37,524 nucleotides of DNA from Burkholderiales bacterium (GTDB lineage: Bacteria; Pseudomonadota; Gammaproteobacteria; Burkholderiales; SG8-41), in assembly GCA_022843705.1 (NCBI GenBank), contig JALHND010000018.1, forward strand, positions 1 through 37,524. The letters run 5' to 3'. Shown here in pieces: positions 8,908 to 32,008 of the stretch (position 1 is its first letter; each line of letters opens with the position of its first letter). A model generated the notes under the pieces. The model did not search any database. It saw only the letters and a program-made list of their open reading frames with translations, and was not told the origin of the DNA. The translations under genes and the position numbers were made by a program.

Positions 8908-10077
8908 ATGAAAATCCACGAATATCAGGCAAAAGAAATCCTGCGCAAGTATGGCGTGACCACGCCGCGCGGCATCCCGTGTTTCACGGTGGATGAAGCG
9001 GTCGGCGCGGCGGCCAAACTGGGCGGCAGTGTCTGGGTGGTCAAGGCACAGATCCATGCCGGCGGGCGCGGCAAGGGCGGTGGCGTCAAAGTCGCCAAGT
9101 CGTCGGCTGATGTGAAGGCGCATGCATCGGCGATCCTCGGCATGCAACTGAAAACGCACCAGACCGGGCCCGAGGGGCAGAAGGTGCGGCGCCTGCTGGT
9201 CGAAGAGGGCGCGGACATCAGGAAGGAACTGTATGTCGGGCTGGTCATCGACCGCGGCAGCCAGCGTGCGGTTCTGATGGCCTCGAGCGAAGGCGGCATG
9301 GACATCGAGGAAGTCGCCGCGCACACCCCGGAGAAGATCCACAAGGTTGTCATCGATCCGGTAAAAGGCCTGGCCGATGGCGATGCCGATGATGTTGCCC
9401 GCAAGATCGGGGTGCCGGAAGCCTCGGTGCCCCAGGCGCGCGCGATTCTGCAGGCGCTCTACAAGGCCTTTGACGACACCGATGCGTCGCTCGCTGAAAT
9501 CAACCCGATGATCCTGACCGGCGACGGCAAGGTGGTCGCGCTTGACGCGAAGATCGACTTTGACAACAACGCGCTGTTCCGCCATCCCGAACTGGTCGCG
9601 CTGCGTGATCTTGACGAGGAAGATCCGGCTGAAGTCGAGGCTTCGAAACACGATCTCAACTACATCCAGCTCGACGGCGACATCGGCTGCCTGGTCAATG
9701 GCGCAGGTCTCGCGATGGCTTCGATGGACATCATTAAGCTTTATGGCGGTGCTCCCGCCAATTTCCTCGACGTCGGCGGCAGCGCGACAGCGGAGAAGGT
9801 CACCGAAGCCTTCAAGATCATGCTGCGCAATCCCCAGCTGAAGGCGATCCTGGTCAACATCTTCGGCGGCATCATGAAATGCGACGTTATTGCGCAGGGG
9901 GTGGTGGCTGCTGCGCGCCAGGTCAGCCTGAGTGTGCCGCTGGTTGTGCGCCTTGAAGGCACCAACGTCGAACTCGGCAAGAAAATCCTCGCCGAATCGG
10001 GGCTGCCGATCATTTCCGCGAACAACATGGCTGACGCTGCGCAGAAAGTGGTTGCTGCGGCGAAGGGGAAAAACTGA
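8908..10077 (+). CDS. sucC: Succinyl-CoA synthetase (ADP-forming) subunit beta
   Basis: [67 protein letters not shown]. Confidence 0.95.
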
Positions 10078-10961
10078 TGTCCATCCTGATCGACAAGAAC
10101 TCCCGCGTGATGACCCAGGGCATCACCGGCAAGACCGGCATGTTCCACACCAAGACCGGCAAGGAATACGCCAACGGCAAGAATTGCTACGTTGCAGGCG
10201 TGACGCCGAAAAAAGGCGGGCAGAGCTACGAAGGCATTCCGATATTCAACAGCGTGCGCGAGGCGAAAGACGCCACCGGCGCCAACGTGTCCGTGATCTA
10301 CGTGCCGCCGCCCTTTGCCGCGGCGGCGATCGAGGAGGCGGAGGATGCCGATCTCGATCTGGTGATCTGCATCACCGAGGGCATCCCGGTGCGCGACATG
10401 GTGCGCCTCAAGTACAAGATGGAGCAGAACAAAAGCAGGACCATCCTGGTCGGCCCGAATTGTCCCGGCGTGATCACGCCTGACGAGATCAAGATCGGCA
10501 TCATGCCCGGCCATATCCATAAAAAGGGCCCGATTGGCGTGGTGTCGCGCTCGGGCACGCTGACCTACGAGGCAGTCGGCCAACTGATGGAAATCGGTCT
10601 CGGCCAGTCGTCCTGCGTCGGCATCGGCGGCGATCCGGTCAACGGCCTCAAGCACATTGATGTCATGAAAATGTTCAACGATGACCCGCAGACCGAGGCG
10701 GTGATCATGGTCGGTGAAATCGGCGGCTCGAACGAGGAAGAGTGCGCGCGCTGGGTCAAGGCCAACATGAAAAAGCCGGTGGTCGGTTTCATCGCCGGCG
10801 TCACGGCGCCGCCCGGCAAACGCATGGGCCATGCCGGGGCGATCATCTCCGGCGGCAAGGGCACGGCCGACGAGAAACTCGCGGTGATGGAGGAATGCGG
10901 CATCCGTACCACGAAGAATCCGGCGGAAATGGGCAAATTGCTGAAGTCGGTGCTGAAGTAA
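10077..10961 (+). CDS. sucD: Succinyl-CoA synthetase subunit alpha
   Basis: [80 protein letters not shown]; starts in TGATG overlap with sucC. Confidence 0.96.
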
Positions 10962-11013: not shown

Positions 11014-12711
11014 TTGGAAGGTGGCATCGTAAAACGCGGCAAACGTTCCCGTGGCGCCCTCAAGGGGCGGACTGCGGACACGGCTGCCCTTGCAGACATC
11101 CAGGCGCTGCTCGACGGCGCTCAGCGCAATACCGGCGTTGATCCGCGTCGCCGCGACCTGCTGATCGAGAACCTGCACCTGATCCAGGACCGTTACGGCC
11201 ATATTTCCGCCGCGCATGTCGTTGCGCTGGCGCGCGAGATGAGGCTGGCGATGACCGAGGTCTACGAGGTGGCGACTTTCTACCACCACTTCGATGTGGT
11301 CAAGGAAGGCGACAAGGCGCCGCCCGCGTTGACGGTGCGTGTCTGCGACTCGCTGTCCTGCGAACTGTCCGGCGCCAGTGACCTGATCCAGGGCCTGAAG
11401 AAGGCGCTGGGCGAAGGCGTGCGGGTGATTCCGGCACCCTGCGTCGGTCGTTGCGACCAGGCGCCGGTGGCCGTTGTCGGGCAGAACCCGGTGGCGCAGG
11501 CCAGCGTCGATAAAATAAAGCCGCTGGTGGCCGCGAAAAAGACGCAGTGCGCGACCGGCAAATACCTGAACTACGCCGAGTATCGCAAAAGCGGCGGCTA
11601 CGACCTCGCGATCGAATGCCTCAACGGCACGCGCGATGCCGAGTCCTTGATCAAGACCATGGAGAACTCGGGCCTGCGCGGTCTCGGCGGCGCGGGTTTC
11701 CCGGCCGGCCGCAAGTGGCGCATCGTGCGAGGCGAAAAGGGGCCGCGGGTGATGGCGGTCAACATCGACGAGGGCGAGCCCGGCACCTTCAAGGACCGCC
11801 ACTACCTCGAGCGCGATCCGCACCGTTTCCTTGAAGGCGTGATCGTTGCCGCCTGGACGGTGCAGATTTCCGAGGTCTACATTTACCTGCGCGACGAATA
11901 CGCCGGCATCCGCGCGATCCTGGAGAAGGAGATCAGGGCGCTGCAGGCTGATCCGCCCTGTCCGCTGCCGCCGATCTTCCTGCGCCGCGGCGCAGGTGCC
12001 TACATCTGCGGCGAAGAGTCGGCGATGATCGAATCGATCGAGGGCAAGCGCGGCATGCCGCGGCTGCGCCCGCCGTATGTGGCCCAGGTCGGCCTGTTCG
12101 GCCATCCGACGCTTGAGCACAACATGGAGACCTTGTACTGGGTGCGCGACATCATCCAGAAAGGCGCCGATTGGTTTTCCGGCCACGGCCGCAACGGGCG
12201 CAAGGGACTGCGCTCGTTTTCGGTGTCGGGTCGCGTGAAAAAGCCCGGCGTGCATCTTGCGCCGGCGGGCATCACGGTGAAGGAACTGATTGACGAATAC
12301 TGCGGCGGCATGCTGCCGGGCCACCGCTTCTATGGTTATCTTCCCGGCGGCGCCTCGGGCGGCATTCTGCCGGCGTCGATGGGCGACATTCCGCTCGATT
12401 TCGACACATTGAATCCCCATGGCTGTTTCATCGGCTCGGCCGCGGTGATCATCCTGTCGGACCGGGATCAGGCCCGCAGGGCTGCCGGTAACGTGATGAA
12501 GTTCTTCGCCGAGGAGTCCTGCGGGCAGTGTACGCCCTGCCGCGTCGGCACGGCCAAGGCCCTGCAGCTGATGCAGGCGCCGAAATGGGACCGCGGCCTG
12601 CTTGAGGAACTGTCGGGGGCGATGGCCGATGCGTCGATCTGCGGCCTCGGCCAGGCGGCGCCGAATCCGATCCGCACGGTCATGAAATATTTCCCCAGGG
12701 AAGTCGAGTAG
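11014..12711 (+). CDS. NAD-dependent formate dehydrogenase beta subunit, NuoE-NuoF fusion
   Basis: N-terminal NuoE-like [2Fe-2S] cysteines (CDSLSCELSG...CVGRCDQAP), NuoF motifs GLRGLGGAGFPAGRKW, INIDEGEPGTFKDR-type, GAGAYICGEESAMIESIEG, ESCGQCTPCRVG. TTG start after strong RBS (aggaggaa). Confidence 0.92.
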   Translation: MEGGIVKRGKRSRGALKGRTADTAALADIQALLDGAQRNTGVDPRRRDLLIENLHLIQDRYGHISAAHVVALAREMRLAMTEVYEVATFYHHFDVVKEGDKAPPALTVRVCDSLSCELSGASDLIQGLKKALGEGVRVIPAPCVGRCDQAPVAVVGQNPVAQASVDKIKPLVAAKKTQCATGKYLNYAEYRKSGGYDLAIECLNGTRDAESLIKTMENSGLRGLGGAGFPAGRKWRIVRGEKGPRVMAVNIDEGEPGTFKDRHYLERDPHRFLEGVIVAAWTVQISEVYIYLRDEYAGIRAILEKEIRALQADPPCPLPPIFLRRGAGAYICGEESAMIESIEGKRGMPRLRPPYVAQVGLFGHPTLEHNMETLYWVRDIIQKGADWFSGHGRNGRKGLRSFSVSGRVKKPGVHLAPAGITVKELIDEYCGGMLPGHRFYGYLPGGASGGILPASMGDIPLDFDTLNPHGCFIGSAAVIILSDRDQARRAAGNVMKFFAEESCGQCTPCRVGTAKALQLMQAPKWDRGLLEELSGAMADASICGLGQAAPNPIRTVMKYFPREVE

Positions 12712-12748
12712 TGCGGACGCCCTGCCGCACCGCACCGGAGGTACAGCG

Positions 12749-15559
12749 ATGACAGCAATGAGCAAGGACGAACTGGCCGCGATGCCGGTCGAGTTCAAAC
12801 TGAACGGCAACAGCATTGTCGCCGAAGCCGGTGAAACCATCATCCAGGCCGCCAAGCGCCACGGCGTCGAGATTCCCCACCTTTGCTACAAGGAAGGGCT
12901 GCGACCCGACGGCAACTGCCGGGCCTGCGTGGTCGAGGTCAAGGGCGAGCGTGTGCTGGCCGCCTCCTGCTGCCGCAACCCCTCGCCGGGCATGGAAGTC
13001 ACGACCGACAGCCCGCGCGCGGTCTCGTCGCAGAAGATGGTGATGGAACTGCTGCTCTCCGACATGCCGGAGCAGCGCCACACCCCGAACTCCGAACTTG
13101 ACCACTGGGCGGGAAAACTCAAGGTCGGCAAGCCGCGTTTCGCGAAACGCCACCAGCCGCAGTCCGACCTGTCGCATTACGGCATCGCCGTCAATCTCGA
13201 TTCCTGCATCCAGTGCACGCGCTGCGTCCGTGCCTGCCGCGAGGAACAGGTCAACGACGTCATCGGTTACGCCTTCCGCGGCGAACATTCGAAAATCGTG
13301 TTCGACCTCGACGATCCGATGGGCGATTCGACCTGCGTCGCCTGCGGTGAATGCGTGCAGGCCTGTCCCACCGGCGCACTGATGCCGGCACGCGAGGCCG
13401 GCCTGGTCAAGCCCGACAGGCAGGTGCACTCGGTGTGCCCGTACTGCGGCGTAGGCTGCCAGCTGACCTACAACGTCAAGGACAACAAAATCATCTCGGT
13501 CGACGGCCGCGACGGCCCGTCGAACCACGGCCGGCTGTGCGTCAAGGGCCGTTACGGTTTTGATTACGCCCACCATCCACAGCGCCTGACCAAGCCGCTG
13601 ATCCGCAAGCCCGGCGTGCCCAAACACGCCGATTTCGCGATGGATCCGGCGAATCCGCTGGAATATTTCCGTGAGGCATCCTGGGAAGAGGCGCTGGATC
13701 TCGCGGCGGGCAGGCTGAAGGCGATCCGTGACCAGCACGGCAACAAGGCACTGGCCGGTTTCGGCTCCGCCAAGGGCAGCAACGAGGAGGCCTACCTGTT
13801 CCAGAAGCTGGTGCGCACCGGCTTCGGCTCCAACAACGTCGACCATTGCACGCGCCTGTGCCACGCCTCGAGTGTTGCCGCGCTGATGGAGGCTGTCAGT
13901 TCGGGTGCGGTATCGAACCAGGTCAATGATGTTGCCCGCGCCGAGGTGATTTTCCTGATCGGCGCCAACCCGCTGTCGAACCACCCGGTGGCCGCGACCT
14001 GGATCAAGAACGCGGTCAAGAACGGCGCCAAACTGATCTATGCCGATCCTCGCCGCAACGAACTGTCGCGGCATGCCACCTATGCCCTGCAGTTCAAGCC
14101 CGACACCGACGTCGCGCTGCTCAACGCGATGATGCACGTCATCGTGCACGAGGGCCTGGTCGACGAAGCCTTCATCAAGTCGCGCACCATCGGCTACGAA
14201 GATCTGAAGAAAAACGTCGAGGGTTACAGCCCCGAGGCGATGGCTCCGGTCTGCGGCATACCTGCGCAAACCATCAGGGAAGTCGCGCGCCTGTATGCGA
14301 CCTCAAAGGGCTCGATGATCCTCTGGGGCATGGGCATTTCGCAGCACATCCACGGCACCGACAATGCGCGCTGCCTGATCGCGCTGTGCCTGATGACCGG
14401 CCAGATCGGCAAACCGGGCTCCGGTTTGCATCCGCTGCGCGGCCAGAACAACGTGCAGGGCGCCTCCGACTCGGGCCTGATCCCGATGGTGTTTCCGGAC
14501 TACCAGCGCGTCGACAATCCGCAGGCGCTGGCACGTTTCGAAAAACTGTGGGGAGCCAAGCTGGATCCCAAACCCGGCCTGACGGTGGTCGAGATCGTGC
14601 ACGCGATCCTCGACGGCGACATCCGCGGCATGTACGTGATGGGCGAAAATCCGGCGATGTCGGACCCGGATGCAAACCATGCACGCGAGGCGCTGGCGAA
14701 ACTCGACTGGCTGGTGGTGCAGGAAATCTTCCTGACCGAGACCTGCTACTACGCCGACGTGATCCTGCCGGCGACTGCCTGGCCGGAGAAGGACGGCACC
14801 GTTACCAACACCGATCGCATGGTGCAGCTGGGCCGCAAGGCGGTTGATGCCCCCGGCGAGGCCAGGCCCGACCTGTGGATCATCCAGGAACTGGCGCGCC
14901 GTCTCGGCCTTGACTGGAACTATGGCGGCCCGCAGGACGTGTTCAACGAGATGCGCAAGGCGATGAACTCGATCGCCGGCATTACCTGGGAGCGCCTGGA
15001 GGCCGAGAGTTCCGTCACTTATCCCTGCGAGAATGAAGGCGATCCCGGACAGCCTGTTGTCTTTGTTGATAAATTCCCGACGCCGACAGGGCGCGCGAAA
15101 TTCGTTCCGGCCGACATCATCCCGGCCGACGAGCGACCCGACCGCGAATTCCCCTTCGTGCTGATCACCGGCCGCCAGCTTGAACACTGGCATACCGGCG
15201 CGATGACACGGCGTGCCGGCGTGCTTGATGCGATCGAGCCTGAGCCGACGGCTTCGATGCACCCGCTGGACCTTGATGCGCTGGGCGCCAAAGTCGGCGA
15301 CGTGCTGACCGTCGAATCCCGCCGCGGCATCATCTCGCTGCACGCGCGCCCCGACGATGGCACGCCGCGCGGTTCGGTGTTCATTCCGTTCTGTTTTTAC
15401 GAGGCGGCAGCCAACCTGCTGACCAATGCCGCGCTGGATCCGTACGGCAAGATCCCCGAGTTCAAGTACTGCGCGGTCAAGGTGACGAAGGGCGGCGAAC
15501 TGATGCCGCGCTCCAGCTACGGCGGCGGGCAGGTGTTGGCGAAGGTCGCAAAAGTCTAG
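12749..15559 (+). CDS. NAD-dependent formate dehydrogenase catalytic (alpha) subunit, Mo/W-bis-MGD
   Basis: NuoG-like N-terminal [2Fe-2S], 2x[4Fe-4S] ferredoxin motifs ([23 protein letters not shown]), [38 protein letters not shown]. Confidence 0.95.
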
Positions 15560-15627: not shown

Positions 15628-17301
15628 ATGGCACTGTCGGACATCGAAATCGCCCAGGCTGCAAAAATGGAGCGTGTCGTCAAGATCGCGCAGAAGCTGG
15701 GCATCCCCGAGGAGCATCTCGTGCCTTACGGCCACTACAAGGCCAAGGTATCGCTGGAGTATGTCGACAGCCTGAAGGACAAGAAGGACGGCAAGCTGAT
15801 CCTGGTGACCGCGATCAACCCGACCCCCGCGGGTGAAGGCAAGACCACCACCACGGTCGGCCTCGGCGACGCGCTGAACCACATCGGCAAGAAGGCGATG
15901 ATCTGCCTGCGCGAGCCCTCGCTCGGGCCCGTGTTCGGCGTCAAGGGCGGCGCGGCCGGCGGCGGCTACGCCCAGGTGGTGCCGATGGAAGACATCAACC
16001 TGCACTTCACCGGCGACTTCGGCGCAATCGCGCTGGCCAACAACCTGCTGTCGGCGATGATCGACAACCACATCTCGCACGGCAACGAGCTCGGCATCGA
16101 CCCGCGCCGCATCACCTGGAAGCGGGTGATGGACATGAACGACCGTGCGCTGCGCGACATCGTCGTGTCGCTGGGAGGCACCGCCAACGGTTACCCCCGC
16201 GAGGACGGCTTCGACATCGTCGTCGCTTCAGAAGTGATGGCGATTTTCTGCCTGGCCACCTCGCTGAAGGACCTGAAGGAACGTCTCGGCAACATCGTCT
16301 TCGGCTACACCCGCGACAACAAGCCCCTGCGCGCGCGCGACCTCAAGGCCCACGGCGCAATGACGGTGCTGCTGAAGGACCAACTGGCGCCGAACCTGGT
16401 GCAGACGCTGGAGAACAATGCCGCCTTCATCCACGGCGGGCCCTTTGCCAACATCGCCCACGGCTGCAACTCGGTGATCGCGACCAAGACAGCCCTGAAG
16501 CTGGTCGACTACGTGGTGACCGAGGCCGGTTTCGGCGCCGACCTCGGTGCCGAGAAGTTCCTCGACATCAAGTGCCGCAAGGCCGGACTGAAACCCGCGG
16601 CGGCGGTGATTGTCGCCACCGTGCGCGCGCTGAAACACCATGGCGGCGTCGGCAAGGAGGATCTCAACAAGGAAAACCTGGCCGCCCTCGAAAAAGGCCT
16701 GGTAAACCTTGAACGCCATGTCAACAACGTCAAGAATGTTTACGGCATTCCCTGCATTGTCTCGGTGAACCGCTTTACTGCCGACACCAAGGCGGAAATG
16801 GACCTGCTCACCGACCGCATCGCCAAGCTCGGTGCAAAAGTTGTTGTTGCCAACCACTGGGCCGAGGGCGGCAAGGGCGCCGCGGAACTGGCGAAGATCG
16901 TTGTCGACATGTGCGAGCAGAAGTCGAACCCGACATTCGTCTACGAAGACAGTGATCCGCTGTGGGAGAAAATGAAGAAGATCGCCACCAAGGTCTACGG
17001 TGCTTCCGACATCACTGCGGACTCCAAGGTGCGCAACCGCATCAAGGAATTGCAGGAAGGCGGTTACGGGCACTATCCCGTGTGCGTGGCCAAGACCCAG
17101 TCTTCGTTTTCGACCGATGCCGGCGTGCGTGGCGCGCCCAGCGGGCATGTGGTGAACGTGCGCGAAGTGCGGCTTGCCGCAGGCGCAGAGTTCGTCGTGA
17201 TGATCTGCGGCGACATCATGACCATGCCGGGCCTGCCGAAGGTGCCCTCCTCGGAGCGCATCGACCTGACCGATGATGGCAAGGTGGTCGGCCTGTTCTG
17301 A
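15628..17301 (+). CDS. fhs: Formate--tetrahydrofolate ligase
   Basis: [60 protein letters not shown]-terminal [17 protein letters not shown]. Confidence 0.97.
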
Positions 17302-18866: not shown

Positions 18867-18986
18867 TTCTTTTGTCATGACAAGACGGAAGAATGAGCCG
18901 CTACGACGTTACTAATAAAGTTGGGCTGCGGCCACAGTCGCAGATATAACTCAGCACCCGTCGGTCAATTGATAAGGAGGAGTCAC

Positions 18987-20000
18987 ATGGATATCCAAGG
19001 CGTACTGTCCCGCGGCCTGCTGCCGCTCGTTGCAGCTTTCGGGCTGGTTGCAGTATCCGCACCAGCTGCAGCATGGGAGCCGACCAAGCCCGTCGAGTTC
19101 GTCATTCCCGCCGGCACCGGCGGCGGTGCCGACCAGATGGCCCGCCTGATACAGGGCATTGTTGCCAAACACAACCTGATGAAGCAGCCGCTGATTCCCG
19201 TCAACAAATCGGGTGGCGCCGGTGCAGAGGGTTTCCTCGAAGTGAAGGCAGCCAAGGGCGATGCGCACAAGATCATCATCACGCTGTCGAACCTGTTCAC
19301 GACACCGATGGCAACCGGCGTGCCTTTCAACTGGAAGGATCTGACGCCGGTGGCGATGCTTTCGCTCGACAACTTCGTGTTGTGGGTGAATGCCGAGGAT
19401 CCGTACAAGACGCCCAAGGAATACCTTGATGCGGTGAAAAAAGGCGGCCCCAATTCGTTCAAGATGGGCGGCACCGGATCGAAGCAGGAAGACCAGATCA
19501 TTACCGTGGCGATCGAGAAGGCTGCCGGCGTCAAGTTCACCTACATCCCGTTCAAGGGCGGCGGTGCCGTGGCGACTCAGTTGGTCGGCAAGCATATCAA
19601 CTCCTCGGTCAATAACCCGATCGAGGCGGTGGCCCAGTGGCGTGCGGGCAAGCTGCGCGCGCTGTGCGTATTTGACGACCAGCGCATGCCGTACAAGAAC
19701 AAGGTCACGGATACCCAGTCCTGGAATGACATCCCGACCTGCAAGGAGGCCGGCATTCCGATGGATTACGTGATGTTGCGAGGTATCTTCATGCCGGCAG
19801 GGGTGGCGCCTGATGTCGTGAACTTCTACGTTGACCTGTTCAACAAGGTCCGCGCGACGCCGGAATGGAAGAAATTCATGGAGGACGGCGCATTCAACCA
19901 GACCTTCATGACCGGCAAGGCCTATGCCGACTGGGTGGCGAAAGCGGAGACGCTGCATCGCGACCTGATGAAGGAAGCGGGCTTCCTCGCCAAGCCCTGA
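18987..20000 (+). CDS. Tripartite tricarboxylate transporter substrate-binding protein (TctC/Bug family)
   Basis: Signal peptide then WEPTKPVEFVIPAGTGGGADQMAR; TctC-like architecture; followed by TctB and TctA genes; RBS AAGGAGGAG. Confidence 0.92.
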   Translation: MDIQGVLSRGLLPLVAAFGLVAVSAPAAAWEPTKPVEFVIPAGTGGGADQMARLIQGIVAKHNLMKQPLIPVNKSGGAGAEGFLEVKAAKGDAHKIIITLSNLFTTPMATGVPFNWKDLTPVAMLSLDNFVLWVNAEDPYKTPKEYLDAVKKGGPNSFKMGGTGSKQEDQIITVAIEKAAGVKFTYIPFKGGGAVATQLVGKHINSSVNNPIEAVAQWRAGKLRALCVFDDQRMPYKNKVTDTQSWNDIPTCKEAGIPMDYVMLRGIFMPAGVAPDVVNFYVDLFNKVRATPEWKKFMEDGAFNQTFMTGKAYADWVAKAETLHRDLMKEAGFLAKP

Positions 20001-20008
20001 TGTGTTTA

Positions 20009-20039
20009 CCCCGGCCCCGCGCATGACGCGGGGCCGGGG
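20009..20039 (+). promoter_or_regulatory. Intercistronic hairpin between tctC and tctB
   Basis: Perfect 13-bp stem CCCCGGCCCCGCG-CATGA-CGCGGGGCCGGGG with no T tract. Confidence 0.7.
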
Positions 20040-20096
20040 ATCTGTAGTACGGGTTCGCGCCCGTCCTTCCGTTCCACCTAAATCCAGGCGAAGTCC

Positions 20097-20621
20097 ATGG
20101 AAGAAAAAGACAGTTCCGCTGCTGCCGAACGCCCGTCAGGTCTGTCGACAAGGGCTGCGGAAATCGCGATTGCCCTGTTCATGATGCTGCTCGGGGGGCT
20201 GGTCGTCTATGACAGCCTGCGTCTGGGCGTGCGCTGGCTTTCAGACGGACCGCAGGCGGGTTACTTTCCGTTTTACATCGGCTTGTTCATCTGCATTTCC
20301 AGCGCAGTGACGCTGGTGCAGGCAATGCTCAACAAGGCTGCCGCAAAAAAGATCTTTGTCGAGTGGGGGCAGCTGAAGCTGGTGCTGATGGTCCTGATCC
20401 CGGCGGCACTGTTCGTGCTCGGCATCCAGTTGATCGGCATATACGTCGCATCTGCCGTCTACATCGCAGTGTTCATGATCTGGCTCGGCAAGTACGGCTG
20501 GCTCAAAAGCGTGGTCGTCGGCGTCGCGGTAAGCGTGACGGTGTTCGTTGCATTCGAGATCTGGTTCAAGGTCCTGCTTTACAAGGGTTTGTACAACCCC
20601 CTGGCCCTGATCGGTTACTGA
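20097..20621 (+). CDS. Tripartite tricarboxylate transporter small membrane subunit (TctB)
   Basis: Four-TM small protein between TctC and TctA genes; GPQAGYFPFYIGLFI typical of TctB. Confidence 0.88.
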   Translation: MEEKDSSAAAERPSGLSTRAAEIAIALFMMLLGGLVVYDSLRLGVRWLSDGPQAGYFPFYIGLFICISSAVTLVQAMLNKAAAKKIFVEWGQLKLVLMVLIPAALFVLGIQLIGIYVASAVYIAVFMIWLGKYGWLKSVVVGVAVSVTVFVAFEIWFKVLLYKGLYNPLALIGY

Positions 20622-20649
20622 GCACACACGAGCATAAGGGGACACCCAA

Positions 20650-22149
20650 GTGGAAGAAATCAATGCTTTGATGCACGGATTTTCCGTGGCATTGACGCCG
20701 TTCAACCTGATGCTGATGGCCATCGGCATCATACTTGGCGTGCTGATCGGCGTGCTGCCCGGACTGGGCGGCGCCAACGGCATCGCAATCCTGCTCCCGC
20801 TAACCTTCACGATGCCGCCCACCTCGGCGGTCATCATGCTGTCCTGCATCTACTGGGGTGCACTTTTCGGCGGTGCCATCACTTCGATCCTGTTCAACAT
20901 CCCCGGTGAGCCGTGGTCGGTTGCGACTACCTTTGACGGTTATCCGATGGCGCAGCAGGGCAAGGCGGGAGAGGCGCTGACCACGGCCTTCACATCATCC
21001 TTCATCGGCGCCCTGTTTGCCGTGGTGATGATCACCTTTCTGGCACCGCTGGTCGCGAAATTCGCTCTGCAGTTCGGCCCCCCGGAATTTTTCTCGGTGT
21101 TTTTCCTGACCTTCTGCAGCTTCATCGGTATGGGCAAGGAGCCGCCGTTCAAGATCATTGCTGCGATGATGCTCGGTTTCGGCCTGGCCGCGGTCGGCAT
21201 TGATACGGTGACCGGTCAGCTGCGGCTCATATTCGGCTGGCACGAGCTGATGCGCGGCTTTGATTTCCTGATCGCGGTGATCGGCCTGTTCGGCATAGGC
21301 GAGATCCTGCTGTCGATGGAAGAGGGGCTGTCTTTCCAGGGACGCAGCGCGAGAATAAACACCCGGATCGTCATCGAAACCTGGAAAAAGCTGCCGAAGT
21401 TCTGGGTGACATCGCTGCGCAGCTGTGTGATCGGCTGCTGGATGGGAATCACCCCCGGGGGGGCTACACCCGCCTCGTTCATGAGTTACGGCATCGCCAA
21501 ACGCATGTCGCCGGATGGCAATAAATTCGGCTCCGGCGTGCCTGAAGGCATCGTGGCGCCGGAAACTGCAGCGCACGCCGCAGGTACTGCTGCGCTGCTG
21601 CCGATGCTGTCCCTCGGCATCCCGGGTTCGCCCACCGCGGCAGTGCTGCTCGGCGGCCTGCTGATCTGGGGGCTGCAGCCCGGGCCGTTGCTGTTCGTCG
21701 AGCAAAAGGATTTTGTCTGGGGGCTGATTGCCAGCATGTACCTCGGCAACATCGTCGGCCTGATCATCGTGCTGACCTGCGTTCCCCTGTTTGCTGCGAT
21801 CCTGCGCATTCCCTTCTCTATCGTGGCACCCGTGATCATCGTCATCTGCGCGATAGGTGCCTACACGGTCAACAACGCCATGCTCGACATCTGGTTCATG
21901 CTCCTGTTCGGCGTCCTCGGTTACGCGTTCAAGAAGCTGTCCTATCCGCTGGCGCCGCTGGTGCTGGCGCTGGTGCTGGGAGACCAGGCGGAAGACGCCT
22001 TCCGCCAGGCGATGCTGATTTCCCAGGGCGATGTGCGGATATTCTTCTCGAACTGGCTGGTCGGCAGCATCATGGGGCTGGGTGTGCTGATGCTGGTCTG
22101 GCCGCTGATCGGCCGGGGCATGGCAGCCTTGCGCGGACGCGCAGCCTGA
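20650..22149 (+). CDS. Tripartite tricarboxylate transporter large permease (TctA)
   Basis: GVLIGVLPGLGGANGIAILLPLTF, YWGALFGGAITSILFNIPGEP, GIPGSPTAAVLLGGL motifs; GTG start. Confidence 0.95.
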   Translation: MEEINALMHGFSVALTPFNLMLMAIGIILGVLIGVLPGLGGANGIAILLPLTFTMPPTSAVIMLSCIYWGALFGGAITSILFNIPGEPWSVATTFDGYPMAQQGKAGEALTTAFTSSFIGALFAVVMITFLAPLVAKFALQFGPPEFFSVFFLTFCSFIGMGKEPPFKIIAAMMLGFGLAAVGIDTVTGQLRLIFGWHELMRGFDFLIAVIGLFGIGEILLSMEEGLSFQGRSARINTRIVIETWKKLPKFWVTSLRSCVIGCWMGITPGGATPASFMSYGIAKRMSPDGNKFGSGVPEGIVAPETAAHAAGTAALLPMLSLGIPGSPTAAVLLGGLLIWGLQPGPLLFVEQKDFVWGLIASMYLGNIVGLIIVLTCVPLFAAILRIPFSIVAPVIIVICAIGAYTVNNAMLDIWFMLLFGVLGYAFKKLSYPLAPLVLALVLGDQAEDAFRQAMLISQGDVRIFFSNWLVGSIMGLGVLMLVWPLIGRGMAALRGRAA

Positions 22150-22319: not shown

Positions 22320-24053
22320 TTATTTTTTGGCGCTTTTCGGATTGAGGCTGGTGATGCGGCCGCTCTCGGTTCCGGCGGTCTCGTCGATGACGGCATTGAT
22401 CAGCGTCGGCTTGCGCGAGCGTACCGCTTCCTCCATCGCCTTGCGCAGTTCTGCCGGCGTCGTCGCGTGTACTCCGACGCCGCCAAAGGCTTCCATCAGC
22501 TTGTCGTAGCGCGCGCCCTTGACGAACACGGTGGGCGCGACGTCGGGACCGCCGGTCGGATTGACGTCAGTGCCCTTGTAGACGCCGTTGTTGTTGAACA
22601 CCACGATGCAGACCGGCAGGTTGTAGCGGCAGATGGTTTCGACTTCCATGCCGGAGAAGCCGAAGGCACTGTCCCCTTCGACCGCGATTACCGGCAGGCC
22701 GGTTTCCACGGCGGCGGCAACGGCAAAACCCATGCCGATGCCCATCACGCCCCAGGTGCCGACGTCGATGCGTTTGCGCGGCTTGTACATGTCGACAATG
22801 CTGCGGGTGAAGTCGAGCGCATTGGCCCCTTCGTTGACCAGCATCGCGTCGGGGTTGGCCTTGATGATGTCGCGCACCACGTTCAGCGCGCTGTGGAAAT
22901 TCATCGGCACCGGGTTCTTGGCCAGGGTTTCGGCCATCTTGGCGATGTTCTTGCTCTTGCGGTCCGCGATGGCGCCCAGCCAGTCGGCCGAGGGTTGCGG
23001 CCAGCCCGAGCCGGCGGCGCTGATGCCGTTTAGCAAAGCCGAGACGCAGGAGCCGATGTCGCCGACCACCGGGGCGTCGATCGGCACATTGCTGTCGGCT
23101 TCCTGCGGGGAAATGTCGATCTGGATGAATTTCTGTCCGCCCCAGGCCTTGGCGTCCTTGCCGCCCCAGGTCTTGCCCTTGCCGTGCGACAGCAGCCAGT
23201 TGAGCCTGGCGCCGATCATCACGACGACATCGGCCTCGGGCAGCACGTAGGAGCGCGCCGCCGCCGCCGACTGTTCGTGGGTGTCGGGCAGCAGGCCCTT
23301 GGCCATCGACATCGGCAGGTAGGGGATTTTGGTTTTTTCGATCAGGGTGCGGATCTCGGTGTCGGCCTGGGCGTAGGCGGCACCCTTGCCGAGGATGATC
23401 AGCGGACGTTTGGCGCCGGCGAGCAGCTGCAGCGCGCGCTGCACGGCGTCCGGCGCCGGGATCTGGCGCGGGGCCGGATCGACAACCTTGATCAGCGACT
23501 TGCGGCCCGTTTCCGCGTCCATCGTCTGCGCGAAAACCTTGGCCGGCAGGTCGAGGTAGACGCCGCCCGGGCGTCCGGACACCGCGGCGCGGATGGCGCG
23601 CGCGACACCGACGCCGATGTCTTCGGCATGCAGCACGCGGAAAGCGGCCTTGCACAGCGGTTTGGCTATCGCGAGCTGGTCCATTTCCTCGTAATCACCC
23701 TGTTGCAGATCGACAACCTCGCGTTCGCTCGATCCACTGACCAGGATCATCGGGAAGCAGTTGGTCGTCGCATTCGCCAGCGCGGTCAGGCCGTTGAGGA
23801 AACCGGGGGCCGATACCGTCAGGCAGATGCCCGGTTTCTGGGTCAGGAAGCCGGCGATGGCCGCGGCGTTGCCGGCATTCTGCTCGTGACGGAAGGAAAT
23901 CATGCGCATGCCGGCGGCCTGCGCACGGCGGGTCAGATCGGTGATCGGGATGCCCGGCAGGCCGTAGAAGTTGGTGATGCCGTTGAGTTTGAGCGCGTCG
24001 ATCAGCAGATCCGCACCGTCGCTCAGTGCCTGCGCTTGTGTTTCAGTCGTCAT
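22320..24053 (-). CDS. oxc: Oxalyl-CoA decarboxylase (ThDP-dependent)
   Basis: [74 protein letters not shown] and [22 protein letters not shown], closely matching remembered Oxalobacter OXC sequence. Confidence 0.96.
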
Positions 24054-24348: not shown

Positions 24349-24957
24349 TCAGATTTTGCCGCGGCGCTTCAGCCGGCTGAGTGTTTCCGGGGACAGGTTG
24401 AGGTAGGACGCCAGTTCCTTCTTCGGCAGCCGGTTGCCGATCTCCGCGTTCTTGCGCATGAATCGCTGAACGCGGCCGGGCGCATCGAGCAGGTGCAGGG
24501 TGATGGTATGCGCCATGACCTCGCTCATCAGGCGCATGACTTCCAGCTCGAATTCCCCCTTGATTTTCGGGTGCCGTTCGAGGAACGCGGCCCATTGCAG
24601 CATCGACAGCTTGGCGGCGCGCACCTTGGTCACCGCGCGGATCGAGTAGGGCATCGGTGTTTTCAGGCGCCATGCCGCGTAACTGGTGTCGATGTCGCTT
24701 TCCGCCGCGAAGCGCAGGATCATTTCCTTGCCCTGCGAGTTTGACACCGTGCGCTTGAGGATGCCGTCGATGATGAAGTACTGCTCCATCGAGTGTGTGC
24801 CCTGGTGCTCGAGGGTTTCCCCCTTGGCGTAATCGGAAATTTCGAGCAGTGTTTCAAACTCGTTCCATTGCGCAGCGGTCAGGTTTTTCAGCACCAGATT
24901 CTGCCGCAGTTGCACGCGGATGATTCTGGATTGGGCGTGGAGTGCGAGCTGGGTCAT
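24349..24957 (-). CDS. CRP/FNR family transcriptional regulator, no cysteines
   Basis: cNMP-binding-like beta-roll (YAKGETLEHQGTHSMEQYFIIDGILKRTV) and C-terminal HTH LPKKELASYLNLSPETLSRLKRRGKI with FNR-type E--SR. ORF track extends to a TTG at 25002; ATG at 24957 is likelier. Confidence 0.88.
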   Translation of the reverse strand: MTQLALHAQSRIIRVQLRQNLVLKNLTAAQWNEFETLLEISDYAKGETLEHQGTHSMEQYFIIDGILKRTVSNSQGKEMILRFAAESDIDTSYAAWRLKTPMPYSIRAVTKVRAAKLSMLQWAAFLERHPKIKGEFELEVMRLMSEVMAHTITLHLLDAPGRVQRFMRKNAEIGNRLPKKELASYLNLSPETLSRLKRRGKI

Positions 24958-24980
24958 GGGTGTCGATTGTAATGCTTTTA

Positions 24981-25008
24981 TAACTGTTTGTTTATTCAGC
25001 AATATTTT
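24981..25008 (-). repeat. AT-rich IHF-like motif copy 3
   Basis: Minus strand AAAATATTGCTGAATAAACAAACAGTTA. Confidence 0.4.
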
Positions 25009-26449: not shown

Positions 26450-26467
26450 TTCCGGCAGAGGATGCAC

Positions 26468-27400
26468 ATGAAAATCGCGATTATCGGGCAGCAGGATTTT
26501 GGCAAATCGGTGCTTGAGGCCTTCCTCGAGCGCAAGGAAGAGGTGGCGGGCGTGTTCTGCGCGCCGGAGAAGCCGGGCGCAAAACCCGATCCCCTGCGCA
26601 TTGCGGCGGAAGAGCGCGGACTGAAGGTGTTCCAGTTTGCCTCGCTGCGGGTGCCGGAGGCGCATGACGCGCTGAAGTCCCTCAATGTCGACATCGGCGT
26701 GATGGCCTATGTATTGCAGTTTGCGCCGGACACTTTCGTGCACATTCCGCGGCTGGGCATGATCCAGTACCATCCCTCGCTGCTGCCGAAGTACCGCGGC
26801 CCGTCGTCGATCAACTGGCCGATCATCCGTGGCGACAGCAAAACCGGCCTGACCATTTTCCGTCCCAACGAGGGACTCGACGAAGGTCCGGTAATCCTGC
26901 AGAAAACCTGCGACATCGGTCCCGACGAAACCATCGGCGAGGTCTATTTCAACAAGCTGTTCCCGATGGGTGTGAAAGCGATGCTGGAAGCCGCCGACCT
27001 GGTGTATGCCGGCAAACACAGCGAGACGGTGCAGGATGAATCGCAGGCCAGTTACGAAGGCTGGTGCCGTGCCGGCGAGGCGCATATCCAGTGGGCCAAC
27101 CATGTCGATTTTGTCTACAACCTGATCCGCGGCACCAATCCGGCACCGGGCGCGTGGACCACGCTCAACGGCAAGAAAGTGCAGATTTTTGACGCGCGCA
27201 AACACCTGTTCCGCAAGTTCGGTGACGTGGTCGGCAAGATCGGTGAAGTGGCCGAAGTGACCGAGGGCAGTTTCAAGGTCACGGCACAGGGTGGTTTCAT
27301 CGAAGTGCTGCGGGCGCGTGGCGAGGACGGCAAAAAACTGTCGGGCGGCGATTTTGCGCGTGCCAATGGCCTGGCAAAGGGCGCCTTGCTCGGCAACTAG
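26468..27400 (+). CDS. Formyltransferase-domain protein resembling the N-terminal hydrolase domain of 10-formyl-THF dehydrogenase (ALDH1L1)
   Basis: MKIAIIGQQDFGKSVLEAF, YHPSLLPKYRGPSSINWPIIRGDSKTGLTIFRPNEGLDEGPVILQK, NLIRGTNPAPGAWT; ~310 aa with no ALDH domain; 18 nt after frc. Confidence 0.85.
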   Translation: MKIAIIGQQDFGKSVLEAFLERKEEVAGVFCAPEKPGAKPDPLRIAAEERGLKVFQFASLRVPEAHDALKSLNVDIGVMAYVLQFAPDTFVHIPRLGMIQYHPSLLPKYRGPSSINWPIIRGDSKTGLTIFRPNEGLDEGPVILQKTCDIGPDETIGEVYFNKLFPMGVKAMLEAADLVYAGKHSETVQDESQASYEGWCRAGEAHIQWANHVDFVYNLIRGTNPAPGAWTTLNGKKVQIFDARKHLFRKFGDVVGKIGEVAEVTEGSFKVTAQGGFIEVLRARGEDGKKLSGGDFARANGLAKGALLGN

Positions 27401-27421
27401 AACGGCACGTCTTGTACCCGG

Positions 27422-27449
27422 AAAAGCCACGCTGTTGCGTGGCTTTTTT
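27422..27449 (+). terminator. Intrinsic terminator after frc-formyltransferase operon
   Basis: AAAAGCCACGC-TGTT-GCGTGGCTTTTTT. Confidence 0.92.
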
Positions 27450-27458
27450 GTTTTTTTA

Positions 27459-27715: not shown

Positions 27716-30283
27716 ATGAAAAAGCTGGGTTTCTGGAAGGCGGACTGGTTTCTGGGCCTCGTTGTCGCCGTGGTGATGCTGGTTGCGGCTCGCGGCGACC
27801 TGATCCAGAGCCTGGAGCGCAAGGCTTACGACCTCGGTGTCCAGGCCACCACGCGTATGCCTTCCGATCGCATCGCCGTCATCGCCATCGACGATGCCAG
27901 CATTGCCAACATCGGGCGCTGGCCATGGTCGCGGGACGTGCATGCCCGCATGATCGACCTGCTGGCCGGAGCCCAGGCCAAGGTGATCGCCAACACCACC
28001 TTCTTCTTCGAGCCGCAGCGCGATGCCGGACTGGTGTATGTCGAAAAACTGCTGAACCTGCACAATGAGTTGTCGGCGCAGGCCGCTGCCGATCCCAAGG
28101 CGGTGGCGGCCAACGAGGGGCTGGCTCGTATCGGCGCGGTGCTGACCGAGGCGGAACAGGCTCTCAATACCGACCGCAGACTGGCCGGCAGCATGAAGGC
28201 CGCCGGCAACGTGGTGCTGCCGATGGTGTTCCAGCAGCTGGCCGAGCCGCAGGGCAATCCGGACAAGCCGTTGCCGACCTACGTGCTGGCCAGTGGCATG
28301 GCCGGACCGAAGGCTGTGGATGCCTTGCCGCCGCCGGGCGTGTTCCCGCTGTATCCGGTGGCCGAACTCGGCCCGGCGGTTGCGAACATCGGGCACCTCA
28401 ATGCGGACATTGATGTCGACGGCGCCGTCCGCGCGGAGCCGCTGCTGGTGCGTTACTACGACCAGGTGTTTCCGGCGCTGTCGGTGATGGTGGCGGCGCG
28501 CAGCCTGAACCTGGGCGTGGCTGACATCAAGCCGGTCTGGGGTGAGGCCCTGCAGCTCGGCAAGCTGCGTGTGGCCACCGATCCCGAGCTGCGGATGCAC
28601 ACGTTTTTCTACGCTGATCGCGACGGCCGCCCGGCTTTTCCGGTGGATTCGTTCTTCGACGTGATCAGCGGCAAGGTGCCGGTCGCCAAGTACCGCGACA
28701 AGATCGTGCTGATCGGCCCCACGGCCGCCGGCCTGGGTTCCGCGCAGGTGACGCCGGTCTCGCCGGCGACGGCGCCGGTGCTGACCCTGGCGCACACCGT
28801 GTCGAGCATTCTCGGCGAACACTTTTTCGTCACGCCGTCCTGGGGCATCTGGGTGCAGCTCGGCGTGTTCGTCGCCGTGGCGCTGTACCTGATCCTGGTG
28901 CTGCCGCGGCTGAAGGCCGGCATTGCCGCGGTGATCAGCCTGGCCATCGGCGTTGCACTGCTCGGCGCGCACTTCGGCCTGATGGTGAGCCAGTTGATGT
29001 GGATACAGCTGATGGGCGCAGCGGCGCTGCTCGCCGTCGGTTACGCCGCGCTGACCACCAAGCGTTTCCTGGTGACGGAACGGGGCAAGGAAAAATCGGA
29101 TGCCGAATCCGCGGAATCGAACCGGATGCTGGGCATTGCCTACCAGGCCCAGGGCCAGCTGGACCTGGCCTGGGACAAGTTCCGCCAGTGCCCGCTCAAT
29201 GACCCGGTGATGGAAAATCTCTACAGCCTGGCCCTCGATTTCGAGCGCAAGCGCCAGTTCAACAAGGCCGAGTCGGTGTTCCGCTACATGGCCGAATTCA
29301 ACCCCAGGTTCCGCGACCTCGAGCAGAGGCTGACGCGCGCCAAGGCGCTGTCGGAAACGGTGATCCTCGGCGGCGCGCAGGGACACCCCGGCGGCACCGT
29401 GATGCTCGAGGGCGGCGGCATGGAAAAGCCGATGCTCGGCCGTTACCAGGTGGAGAAGGAACTGGGCAAGGGCGCGATGGGCGTCGTCTACCTCGGCAAG
29501 GATCCGAAGATCGGGCGCGTGGTGGCGATCAAGACCATGGCGCTGTCGCAGGAGTTCGAGGGCGACGAACTGGTCGAGGTCAAGGAGCGCTTTTTCCGCG
29601 AGGCGGAAACGGCGGGCCGCCTGACCCATCCGAACATCGTCACCATCTACGACGCCGGCGAAGAGCACGACCTGGCCTATATCGCGATGGAATTCCTGAA
29701 GGGGCGCGACCTCGTGCCGTACACCAAGCCCGATGCGCTGCTGCCCGTGCCCCAGGTGATGTCGATCATCGCCCGCGTTGCCGAGGCGCTGGGTTATGCC
29801 CACCAGCAGAATGTCGTGCATCGTGACATCAAGCCTGCAAACATCATGTACGAGCCGGAAAGCGATACGCCGAAAGTCACGGACTTCGGCATCGCGCGCG
29901 TGACTGATTCATCCAAGACCAAGACCGGCATGGTGCTGGGCACGCCCTCCTACATGTCGCCGGAGCAGCTGGCTGGCAAGAAGGTGGAGGGACGTTCCGA
30001 CCTGTTCTCGCTTGGCGTCACGCTCTACCAGATGCTCAGCGGCAAGCTGCCTTTCCAGGGGGACTCGATGGCGCAGTTGATGTTCAAGATTGCCAATGAG
30101 CCGCATGCCGACATCCGCACGCTGAACCCGGCCCTGCCGGCCTGCGTGGCTGCGGTCACCAACAAGGCGCTGGCCAAGGATCCCGACCAGCGTTACCAGA
30201 GCGGCGAGCAGATGGCCAAGGCGATCCGGCTGTGCCTGGGCACGCTGGCAGCCAAACCGTCCGCTGCTGCGGCGACGACCTGA
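27716..30283 (+). CDS. CHASE2 domain-containing Ser/Thr protein kinase
   Basis: CHASE2 signature (IAVIAIDDASIANIGRWPWSRDVHARMIDLL), three C-terminal TMs, kinase motifs LGKGAMGVVYLGKDP, HRDIKPANIMYE, DFGIARV, GTPSYMSPEQL. Confidence 0.93.
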   Translation: MKKLGFWKADWFLGLVVAVVMLVAARGDLIQSLERKAYDLGVQATTRMPSDRIAVIAIDDASIANIGRWPWSRDVHARMIDLLAGAQAKVIANTTFFFEPQRDAGLVYVEKLLNLHNELSAQAAADPKAVAANEGLARIGAVLTEAEQALNTDRRLAGSMKAAGNVVLPMVFQQLAEPQGNPDKPLPTYVLASGMAGPKAVDALPPPGVFPLYPVAELGPAVANIGHLNADIDVDGAVRAEPLLVRYYDQVFPALSVMVAARSLNLGVADIKPVWGEALQLGKLRVATDPELRMHTFFYADRDGRPAFPVDSFFDVISGKVPVAKYRDKIVLIGPTAAGLGSAQVTPVSPATAPVLTLAHTVSSILGEHFFVTPSWGIWVQLGVFVAVALYLILVLPRLKAGIAAVISLAIGVALLGAHFGLMVSQLMWIQLMGAAALLAVGYAALTTKRFLVTERGKEKSDAESAESNRMLGIAYQAQGQLDLAWDKFRQCPLNDPVMENLYSLALDFERKRQFNKAESVFRYMAEFNPRFRDLEQRLTRAKALSETVILGGAQGHPGGTVMLEGGGMEKPMLGRYQVEKELGKGAMGVVYLGKDPKIGRVVAIKTMALSQEFEGDELVEVKERFFREAETAGRLTHPNIVTIYDAGEEHDLAYIAMEFLKGRDLVPYTKPDALLPVPQVMSIIARVAEALGYAHQQNVVHRDIKPANIMYEPESDTPKVTDFGIARVTDSSKTKTGMVLGTPSYMSPEQLAGKKVEGRSDLFSLGVTLYQMLSGKLPFQGDSMAQLMFKIANEPHADIRTLNPALPACVAAVTNKALAKDPDQRYQSGEQMAKAIRLCLGTLAAKPSAAAATT

Positions 30284-30292
30284 GGGCCGGCC

Positions 30293-31102
30293 ATGGATCT
30301 TTCAGGCTTCATCGAAATCGCGACCGCCACCCACCCCGGGATGGTGCGTTCGCATAACGAGGACAGCATCGCGGCTGACGCGGCCACGGGCCTGGCGGTA
30401 CTCGCCGACGGCATGGGCGGCTACAACGCGGGTGAAGTGGCCAGCGGCATCGCGGTGGCGATGATCAGCGCCGAACTGAAAAAGGTACTTGCGGCCCGCA
30501 GCGAGGATTTTGACGTCGCGGCTGCCGAGAGGCTGGTTGGTGAGCACGCGGTCCGCGCCAACAACGCGATTTTCCAGGCATCGCAGAATCAGGCGCAGTA
30601 TGCGGGCATGGGCACCACGCTGGTGGTCATGCTGCTCCATGACAACAGCCTGGTGGTCGGGCACATCGGCGACTCGAGGCTCTACCGCTTCCGCGAAGGC
30701 AGGCTGGAACAGGTCACGCGTGATCATTCCCTGCTGCAGGAGCAGATCGACAGCGGCCTGATCACCAGGGAGCAGGCGCGCCATTCGCAGAACAAGAACC
30801 TGGTGACCCGGGCGGTGGGTATCGATCCGGAGGTCGAGGCCGAGGTCCACAGCTATCCGGTGCTGCCGGGCGACATCTACCTGCTGTGTTCGGACGGGCT
30901 CAATGACATGGTTACCGACGAGGACATGGAGTTGACGCTGGGTTCGCTGCAGGCCAACCTGCCGCTGGCGGCGGAGCAACTGGTGCAGCAGGCCAATGAC
31001 AATGGCGGTCGTGACAATGTTTCGGTTATTCTGGTGCGCGTGCTGAAGGGCTTTCCGGCCCGCGCGGGGTTGGTTGACCGGTTGAAGTCCTGGTTCAGAT
31101 AA
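30293..31102 (+). CDS. PP2C-family Ser/Thr protein phosphatase
   Basis: SHNEDSIAADAATGLAVLADGMGGYNAGEVAS, GMGTTLVV, VGHIGDSRLYRFREGRLEQVTRDHS, LCSDGLNDMV, DNVSVILVRV. Confidence 0.95.
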   Translation: MDLSGFIEIATATHPGMVRSHNEDSIAADAATGLAVLADGMGGYNAGEVASGIAVAMISAELKKVLAARSEDFDVAAAERLVGEHAVRANNAIFQASQNQAQYAGMGTTLVVMLLHDNSLVVGHIGDSRLYRFREGRLEQVTRDHSLLQEQIDSGLITREQARHSQNKNLVTRAVGIDPEVEAEVHSYPVLPGDIYLLCSDGLNDMVTDEDMELTLGSLQANLPLAAEQLVQQANDNGGRDNVSVILVRVLKGFPARAGLVDRLKSWFR

Positions 31103-31119
31103 GCAACGGGGATACTACT

Positions 31120-31893
31120 ATGGCGAAGTTGATACTTTCTCTCGAGGGCTCGATGATCCGCGAGGTTCCGCTGGACAAGGAGCGGATCATGATCGGCCGC
31201 AAACCCTCCAACGAGATCCAGATCGAGAACCTGGCCGTCAGCGGCGAACACGCCTGCATCGTGACCATACTCAACGATTCCTTCCTCGAGGACCTGGGTT
31301 CGACCAACGGGACCCTGGTCAACGGCAACCCGATCAAGAAGCACATCCTGCAGAACAACGACGTCATCGAGATCGGCAAGTACAAGCTGAAGTACGTGGC
31401 GGATGCGCCGGCAGCGGGCCATGCGGCCGGTGAGGATTTCGAGAAGACGATGATCCTGCGCGCGCCGCCGAAGGCGGCAGCAGCGCCCGTGGCAGCCAAA
31501 CCGGTCAACGAAGCGGCACCGCCGGCCAAACCCTCGATGCCGCCGCCGACGCCGCGGCCGGTTCCGCCGCTGGCGAAACCGGCCGCACCGCCGCCGCCCG
31601 CCGCACCCGCGGCCGGCACGGTGCAGCAGGCGCTTGCGGCCGTGCAGATCCTGACCGGCCCCAGCGCCGGAAAGGAACTGGATCTGGTGAAAAACCTGAC
31701 CACGCTGGGCAAGCCCGGCCTGCAGGTTGCGGTGATCACCCGCCGGCCCCAGGGATATTTCATCACCCATGTGGAGGGTGCCAAGTTTCCGGTCGTCAAT
31801 GGCAAGATGATTGATGCCCAGGCGCAGCCCCTGCAGGATCACGATGTGATCGAGCTCGCGGGTGTGAAAATGGAATTTTTCATCAAAAAATAA
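31120..31893 (+). CDS. FHA domain protein, canonical N-terminal FHA, Pro/Ala linker, degenerate C-terminal FHA-like domain
   Basis: IGRKPSNEIQIENLAVSGEHACIV...EDLGSTNGTLVNGNPI; Pro-rich linker; second GKELDLVKNLTTLGKPGLQVAVITRR...VNGKMID domain. Confidence 0.9.
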   Translation: MAKLILSLEGSMIREVPLDKERIMIGRKPSNEIQIENLAVSGEHACIVTILNDSFLEDLGSTNGTLVNGNPIKKHILQNNDVIEIGKYKLKYVADAPAAGHAAGEDFEKTMILRAPPKAAAAPVAAKPVNEAAPPAKPSMPPPTPRPVPPLAKPAAPPPPAAPAAGTVQQALAAVQILTGPSAGKELDLVKNLTTLGKPGLQVAVITRRPQGYFITHVEGAKFPVVNGKMIDAQAQPLQDHDVIELAGVKMEFFIKK

Positions 31894-32008
31894 GCACCCA
31901 CATGTCCGCGGCACCGGCAGCGGGGCGCGCCGCGGACGGCCAGGAGGCTCGCGTATTTTCACGCGTGGCGGTATCCCTGCGATGACAGGGTTGCATTAGG
32001 ACGACAGG

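Follow-up and report, generated by a model that had tools for sequence, protein, structure and literature searches.

The N-terminal domain of ALDH1L1 strips the formyl group from 10-formyl-tetrahydrofolate (10-formyl-THF), and the thiol of a 4'-phosphopantetheine arm carries it (PMC8748788). In the isolated zebrafish N-domain a thiol has been proposed to attack first, and five residues, namely His106, Ser108, Asp142, Arg114 and Tyr200, bind or process the formyl group and THF (PMC4388273). The N-terminal domain of HypX has been proposed to pass the formyl group from 10-formyl-THF to CoA, the authors conceding that direct proof is lacking, and the same 2019 paper gives the exchange carried out by Frc as the only other reported substrate role of formyl-CoA (PMC6802093). 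The classical oxalate pathway of Oxalobacter and of E. coli (yfdWU) includes no folate formyltransferase, and formyl-CoA is converted to formate through Frc only. We found genuine frc and oxc members of this pathway in a window of 37,524 nt (the whole stretch of DNA that was analysed), where frc is followed by a gene for a stand-alone ALDH1L1-N-like formyltransferase, named FMTL in this analysis. Judging from sequence comparison, FMTL most likely shuttles formyl groups from coenzyme A to folate or back, and would thereby tie oxalate breakdown to biosynthesis without ATP.

The start codon of FMTL is shared by 27 out of 27 aligned homologues, despite an in-frame ATG at 26462, and it is preceded by an AGAGG motif. 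The Pfam search assigned Formyl_trans_N (108 bits, residues 1–160) and Formyl_trans_C (58 bits, residues 204–299) to the protein, and no further domain. Pfam, structure matches and Foldseek all agree with the earlier note, which had described an ALDH1L1-N-like protein of about 310 aa free of carrier and aldehyde dehydrogenase domains. The note had also placed the gene in an operon, 18 nt after frc, and this was borne out: the gap is 18 nt, the frc product exceeds the TIGR03253 cut-off, and a terminator-like hairpin follows FMTL, which fits a two-gene frc-FMTL transcript. The promoter predicted to serve both genes was not recovered, since a consensus scan gave no sigma-70 site on the + strand ahead of frc. 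Overall, we hold the identity of the FMTL gene, its family and its association with frc with very high confidence.

Table 1. Coordinates of the features discussed in the text; positions refer to the window unless a locus or accession is given. FMTL, stand-alone ALDH1L1-N-like formyltransferase; frc, formyl-CoA:oxalate CoA-transferase; oxc, oxalyl-CoA decarboxylase; fhs, formate-tetrahydrofolate ligase.
Feature	Position	Strand	Details
sucCD-type ligase (succinate- or malate-CoA ligase)	8908..10961	+	NF001913, 586.6 bits (cut-off 370)
NAD-dependent formate dehydrogenase	11014..15559	+	fused NuoE/F-like subunit 11014-12711, alpha subunit 12749-15559; TIGR01591, 781.6 bits (cut-off 666)
fhs	15628..17301	+	NF010030, 914.6 bits (cut-off 652)
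TctC-TctB-TctA, tripartite tricarboxylate-type transporter	18921..22149	+	ORFs 18921-20000, 20097-20621 and 20650-22149; via annotated homologues in L170
oxc, 577 aa, divergent from frc	22320..24053	-	TIGR03254, 981.1 bits (cut-off 739.4)
Crp-type regulator, divergent from frc	24349..25002	-	cNMP-binding domain, weak HTH; Pfam
frc, 422 aa	25181..26449 (stop codon included)	+	TIGR03253, 566.7 bits (cut-off 504.2)
FMTL, 310 aa	26468..27400	+	ATG start; ORF, Pfam and structure matches
Intrinsic-terminator-like hairpin closing the frc-FMTL pair	27419..27450	+	14 pairs, loop of 4, T-rich tail; consensus match only
Oxc-replacing 2-hydroxyacyl-CoA-lyase-like TPP enzyme	L127 9151-10845
Oxc-replacing 2-hydroxyacyl-CoA-lyase-like TPP enzyme	L128 7499-9181
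Oxc-replacing 2-hydroxyacyl-CoA-lyase-like TPP enzyme	L129 4842-6533
Oxc-replacing 2-hydroxyacyl-CoA-lyase-like TPP enzyme	L130 8583-10301
Oxc-replacing 2-hydroxyacyl-CoA-lyase-like TPP enzyme	L131 4700-6400
Oxc-replacing 2-hydroxyacyl-CoA-lyase-like TPP enzyme	L132 9797-11497
Plasmid cluster of Paracoccaceae bacterium La 6	CP031587.1 62036-86950 (L170)		marine strain

The solved structures that best matched FMTL were ALDH1L1 N-domains (zebrafish 4qpd, 1e-57; rat full-length 7rlu, 1e-55; human 2bw0, 4e-55), with Fmt (1e-37), ArnA (about 1e-28) and HypX (about 1e-6) further down. The match to the ALDH1L1 N-domain is full-length with about 36% identity, and both proteins have the HPSLLP, RGxSxINW and YE motifs; ALDH1L1, however, continues into a phosphopantetheine carrier and a C-terminal aldehyde dehydrogenase domain, whereas FMTL ends without either, is bacterial and lies within frc/oxc operons. 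The N-domain of HypX/HoxX has the same fold, but its identity to FMTL is just 18–19%, it is joined to a C-terminal enoyl-CoA-hydratase-like CoA-binding domain that FMTL does not have, and it is encoded among hydrogenase maturation genes rather than with frc/oxc and formyl-CoA producers. Some of the CoA-contact residues of HypX fall outside the domain common to FMTL.

Fmt and FMTL have the two-domain architecture and the fold in common, and fmt (TIGR00460) was the top NCBIfam model, but with 154.6 bits FMTL stayed under its cut-off of 201.5, as did four other members (132–165 bits). The N-x-H catalytic motif of Fmt is replaced by QYH in FMTL, while the genome's own Fmt has NIH. That Fmt also has the GRG-containing basic loop, which serves tRNA binding in Fmt and is not present in FMTL. 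The two other Formyl_trans_N proteins of the genome are encoded by purN beside purM and by a canonical fmt in the gene order def-fmt-rsmB; a second copy of Fmt was thus ruled out by cut-off, motif, loop and the genome's own def-fmt. Membership in PurU, the 10-formyl-THF deformylase, was also ruled out (25.1 bits against TIGR00655, cut-off 285.95; no ACT domain), and no PurU was seen in the source genome, which is 92% complete. In the tree, the FMTL family and ALDH1L1 split from Fmt with 100/100 support, the vertebrate ALDH1L1 sequences sitting on a long branch whose exact placement is loose. Members linked to frc and stand-alone members were intermixed, so two functions cannot be claimed for them. 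Public records name FMTL genes fmt, e.g. fmt_2 in CP031587.

We found that H102, S104, D138, R110 and Y196 were invariant in 36 members from Betaproteobacteria and Alphaproteobacteria, corresponding to the zebrafish ALDH1L1 residues His106, Ser108, Asp142, Arg114 and Tyr200, respectively. The Asn-His-Asp set suggested for inspection by the earlier note was found in part: His102, Ser104 and Asp138 are intact, but the canonical Asn is Gln100. This position (Cys in a few Alphaproteobacteria) corresponds to Ile104 of ALDH1L1 and is Asn in Fmt, ArnA and GART. Gln100 was dropped as a signature of the frc-linked group, since unlinked members also have Gln and some linked ones Cys. The AlphaFold2 model (pLDDT 93, pTM 0.89) retrieved ALDH1L1-N 4qpd first in Foldseek (E 1e-35, TM 0.88), followed closely by Fmt (TM up to 0.93), while HypX gave a TM of about 0.68–0.70 and ArnA the same fold. 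The predicted fold supports binding of 10-formyl-THF/THF; as Fmt is nearly as close as ALDH1L1, the fold alone is not diagnostic and does not choose the second substrate.

We surveyed 150 genomes of the order (Burkholderiales) and detected an FMTL orthologue (58–97% identity) in 35 of them. Frc was above its cut-off in all 35 carriers vs 3 of the 115 non-carriers, and FMTL occurred in none of the 112 genomes without Frc (p 4e-31; all Fisher tests treated genomes as independent and ignored phylogeny). Just three of the 38 Frc genomes had no FMTL (G007, G030 and G119); the presence of oxc and frc in genomes such as G119 implies that oxalate breakdown does not require FMTL. Concerning gene order, frc immediately preceded FMTL in the same orientation in 28 out of 30 fetched loci of the order, and in the remaining two FMTL was directly upstream of oxc. 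A separate collection gave frc directly upstream of FMTL in 75 out of 80 loci: two of the other five were cut at a contig end, one (L080) had only 411 bp upstream, and two (L050 and L082) were genuine exceptions. This adjacency is far above chance. Conservation of the frc neighbour across oxalotrophs, which the earlier note had proposed to check, is thus seen in oxalotroph-like genomes, and the linkage is not unique to the source genome but recurs across the order and in Alphaproteobacteria. In the literature, searched in open-licence papers only, we found no description of frc with an FMTL-type neighbour.

Some loci deserve a separate mention. The genes of L050 (8001-8930) and L082 (7221-7991) are FMTL orthologues with 87–88% identity in Methylibium bins, with no frc nearby. 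Eight metagenome bins labelled Bordetella parapertussis (L038, L045, L057, L061, L063, L068, L073 and L094) contain an environmental betaproteobacterial cluster, and these FMTL-bearing bins are probably mislabelled. A 1.4-kb contig in Methylobacterium oxalidis (L104; FMTL 71% identity) may be a contaminant.

Among 386 genomes of Alphaproteobacteria, FMTL was present in 34, Frc in 36 and both in 28, that is, Frc occurred in 28 of the 34 carriers vs 8 of the 352 non-carriers (Fisher p 1e-29). Matches near E 1e-49 were ordinary Fmt beside def and were left out of these counts. FMTL was beside frc in 15 of the 31 fetched loci, often with fhs next, and the recurrent order was an oxc or a gene for a 2-hydroxyacyl-CoA-lyase-like enzyme, then frc, FMTL and fhs. 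Where FMTL was apart from frc, Frc was usually still present in the genome (29 of 35 carriers over the cut-off), and few carriers had no Frc above the cut-off at all. Stand-alone FMTL genes in L177 and L179-L181 adjoin a pterin-4a-carbinolamine dehydratase-like gene. Among plasmids, CP031587 alone yielded a true member, and the remaining matches were Fmt.

The frc product of the window matched E. coli YfdW (6e-126) and Oxalobacter Frc (about 1e-109) in the PDB, and orthologues of the divergent Crp-type regulator adjoin frc-FMTL in most Burkholderiales loci. The Tct genes are the probable uptake system of the cluster. The sucCD-type ligase scored 524 bits against the malate-CoA ligase model, under the cut-off of 604. 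In L133 (3113-18172), frc-FMTL is followed in one row by malic-enzyme-like and CitE-like genes, sucCD, formate dehydrogenase and fhs, which suggests a possible malate-CoA ligase function for the sucCD pair. The NuoE-like and NuoF-like subunits of the window's formate dehydrogenase form a single fused protein of 565 aa. Directly 3' of FMTL (27716-34243) we named by eye a CHASE2-Ser/Thr kinase, a PP2C-type phosphatase, an FHA protein and a CHASE2-cyclase; the kinase gene comes after frc-FMTL in most Burkholderiales loci.

Seven FMTL carriers of the order had no true Oxc. Six of these instead encode another TPP enzyme directly upstream of frc-FMTL, and its score against TIGR03254 was 222–255 bits (cut-off 739). 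The same replacement, with frc-FMTL kept, was found in Alphaproteobacteria (L182, L194-L197). The nearest solved structures of this enzyme were 2-hydroxyacyl-CoA lyases/synthases and entries that had been deposited under the name oxalyl-CoA decarboxylase (E about 1e-80 to 1e-75), and it passed no NCBIfam cut-off, HACL being second best behind an 'acetolactate synthase' model. 2-Hydroxyacyl-CoA lyases and oxalyl-CoA decarboxylases are formyl-CoA enzymes, and on these similarities the replacing enzyme probably forms formyl-CoA. It may simply be a further oxalyl-CoA decarboxylase, given that genes for the same Tct transporter or for an oxalate/formate antiporter lie close by. The link of FMTL appears to track formyl-CoA production rather than Oxc itself.

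Fhs was present in 31 of the 35 FMTL carriers of the order vs 37 of the 115 non-carriers (Fisher p 3e-9). Four genomes of 1.7–2.1 Mb, complete or near-complete (rated 100%), contain Oxc, Frc and FMTL without Fhs (G031, G076, G430 and G514), and an enzyme that depletes 10-formyl-THF would be hard to explain there. Two loci (L126 and L139) have the order oxc-frc-frc-FMTL. The plasmid stretch of strain La 6 comprises formate dehydrogenase, ppc, sucDC, a GntR-type regulator, oxc, frc, FMTL ('fmt_2'), fhs and Tct genes, together with a ketopantoate-reductase family gene, glyA, an aminotransferase close to BhcA, and hprA. ApbA2 of C. necator belongs to the ketopantoate-reductase family as well. From its annotation, the cluster reads as an oxalate-to-serine-cycle island, apparently with the pathway complete: the serine-cycle reading draws on ApbA2 acting as a CoA-acylating glyoxylate dehydrogenase during growth of C. 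necator on oxalate (PMC7486775), and the rest is taken from annotation.

With a probability of roughly 0.5, we propose that FMTL is a reversible formyl-CoA/tetrahydrofolate formyltransferase, which would catalyse formyl-CoA + THF <-> CoA + 10-formyl-THF (at N10) via His102, Ser104 and Asp138. Counting exchange in either direction, we put the odds at even or slightly better. The step from formyl-CoA to 10-formyl-THF should be downhill, by estimate rather than computation. We infer CoA as the second substrate, and likewise what reaction occurs and which way it runs. Like the arm of ALDH1L1, CoA terminates in a pantetheine thiol, and FMTL is encoded with producers and consumers of formyl-CoA, so by analogy formyl exchange between CoA and THF would be the simplest reading. 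FMTL may then be a stand-alone counterpart of the half-reaction proposed for HypX and ALDH1L1. In oxalate-using cells, Oxc would make formyl-CoA, Frc would spend most of it on activating the next oxalate, and FMTL would divert a part straight into 10-formyl-THF for C1 assimilation, using no ATP and running beside the ATP-dependent route of formate and Fhs. Since Frc needs formyl-CoA to activate oxalate, the part diverted would have to be repaid by another CoA donor. Run in reverse, FMTL could turn 10-formyl-THF and CoA into formyl-CoA and so prime Frc, a possible role absent from the earlier note. Several points count against the exchange. Fhs mostly coexists with FMTL, which would often leave the transfer route partly superfluous; about half of the sampled alphaproteobacterial FMTL genes are not beside frc; a few carriers have no Frc above the cut-off, and some genomes with oxc and frc have no FMTL; the HypX residues in contact with CoA fall partly outside the common domain; and a drain on formyl-CoA would break the Frc cycle unless oxalate were re-activated by a different CoA donor.

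The main rival, which we consider unlikely, is that FMTL releases formate from 10-formyl-THF, like the isolated ALDH1L1 N-domain or PurU, with which it would then possibly have the overall reaction in common, and balances the folate pool against Fhs. The closest characterised relative carries the hydrolase name and its His/Ser/Asp set is intact in FMTL (PMC4388273), PurU was not seen in the source genome, whereas PurN, Fmt and FMTL were, and Fhs and FMTL often coexist. A hydrolase next to fhs would nevertheless form a futile, ATP-wasting pair, FMTL is kept in genomes without Fhs, and in the serine-cycle-like island of CP031587 hydrolysis would oppose assimilation. Hydrolysis also leaves unexplained the near-exclusive tie of FMTL to Frc and formyl-CoA makers, and the hydrolase reaction of ALDH1L1 has itself been proposed to need a thiol. 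Of the two functions put forward by the earlier note, formyl-CoA/THF transfer fits the comparative evidence better than 10-formyl-THF hydrolysis, and the note's interpretation as a whole is partly supported: we favour transfer because of the Oxc or HACL-like and Frc partners, the persistence without Fhs, the serine-cycle-like islands and the pantetheine-thiol chemistry of the family.

It is improbable that FMTL transfers the formyl group to another acceptor (Met-tRNA, a sugar nucleotide or a protein) or simply hydrolyses formyl-CoA (EC 3.1.2.10). The fold is that of Fmt and ArnA, the public label is fmt, and formyl-CoA hydrolase has been described as having no assigned gene (PMC10192776); against this, five diverse members are under the Fmt cut-off, FMTL has neither the N-x-H motif nor the GRG-containing loop in a genome with def-fmt-rsmB, its neighbourhoods contained no recognisable sugar or lipid-A genes, and the THF-site residues are conserved, which argues against a folate-free formyl-CoA hydrolase.

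In an about equally improbable reading, FMTL would form formyl-CoA as a primer: Fhs would make 10-formyl-THF from formate and ATP, FMTL would convert it to formyl-CoA and Frc would then activate oxalate, with ATP driving the activation and formate as carrier, which suits the order frc-FMTL-fhs but is thermodynamically uphill at the step from 10-formyl-THF to formyl-CoA unless pulled. Priming is a need known elsewhere, as suggested for E. coli YfdE, an acetyl-CoA:oxalate CoA-transferase (PMC3720670), and the HypX N-domain has been proposed to work in this direction (PMC6802093), but FMTL carriers without Fhs could not use the route and the Frc of some species already takes other CoA donors.

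More broadly, and only tentatively, the formyl-CoA/THF exchange might represent an unrecognised, widespread formyl-CoA:tetrahydrofolate N10-formyltransferase that connects the formyl pools bound to CoA and to folate, supplies C1 units without the ATP-dependent Fhs step in Pseudomonadota making formyl-CoA through oxalyl-CoA decarboxylase or the 2-hydroxyacyl-CoA-lyase-like enzyme, and replaces Fhs altogether in some streamlined genomes. No account of an enzyme of this kind turned up in the open-licence papers searched, which is not proof of absence. If the exchange is true, database entries labelled 'fmt', among them fmt_2 of CP031587, would need correction, and synthetic C1 designs based on formyl-CoA would gain a natural enzyme that connects them to folate. 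The operons common to Betaproteobacteria and Alphaproteobacteria would be explained, and growth on oxalate would have a different energy balance, given a direct bridge from formyl-CoA to 10-formyl-THF.
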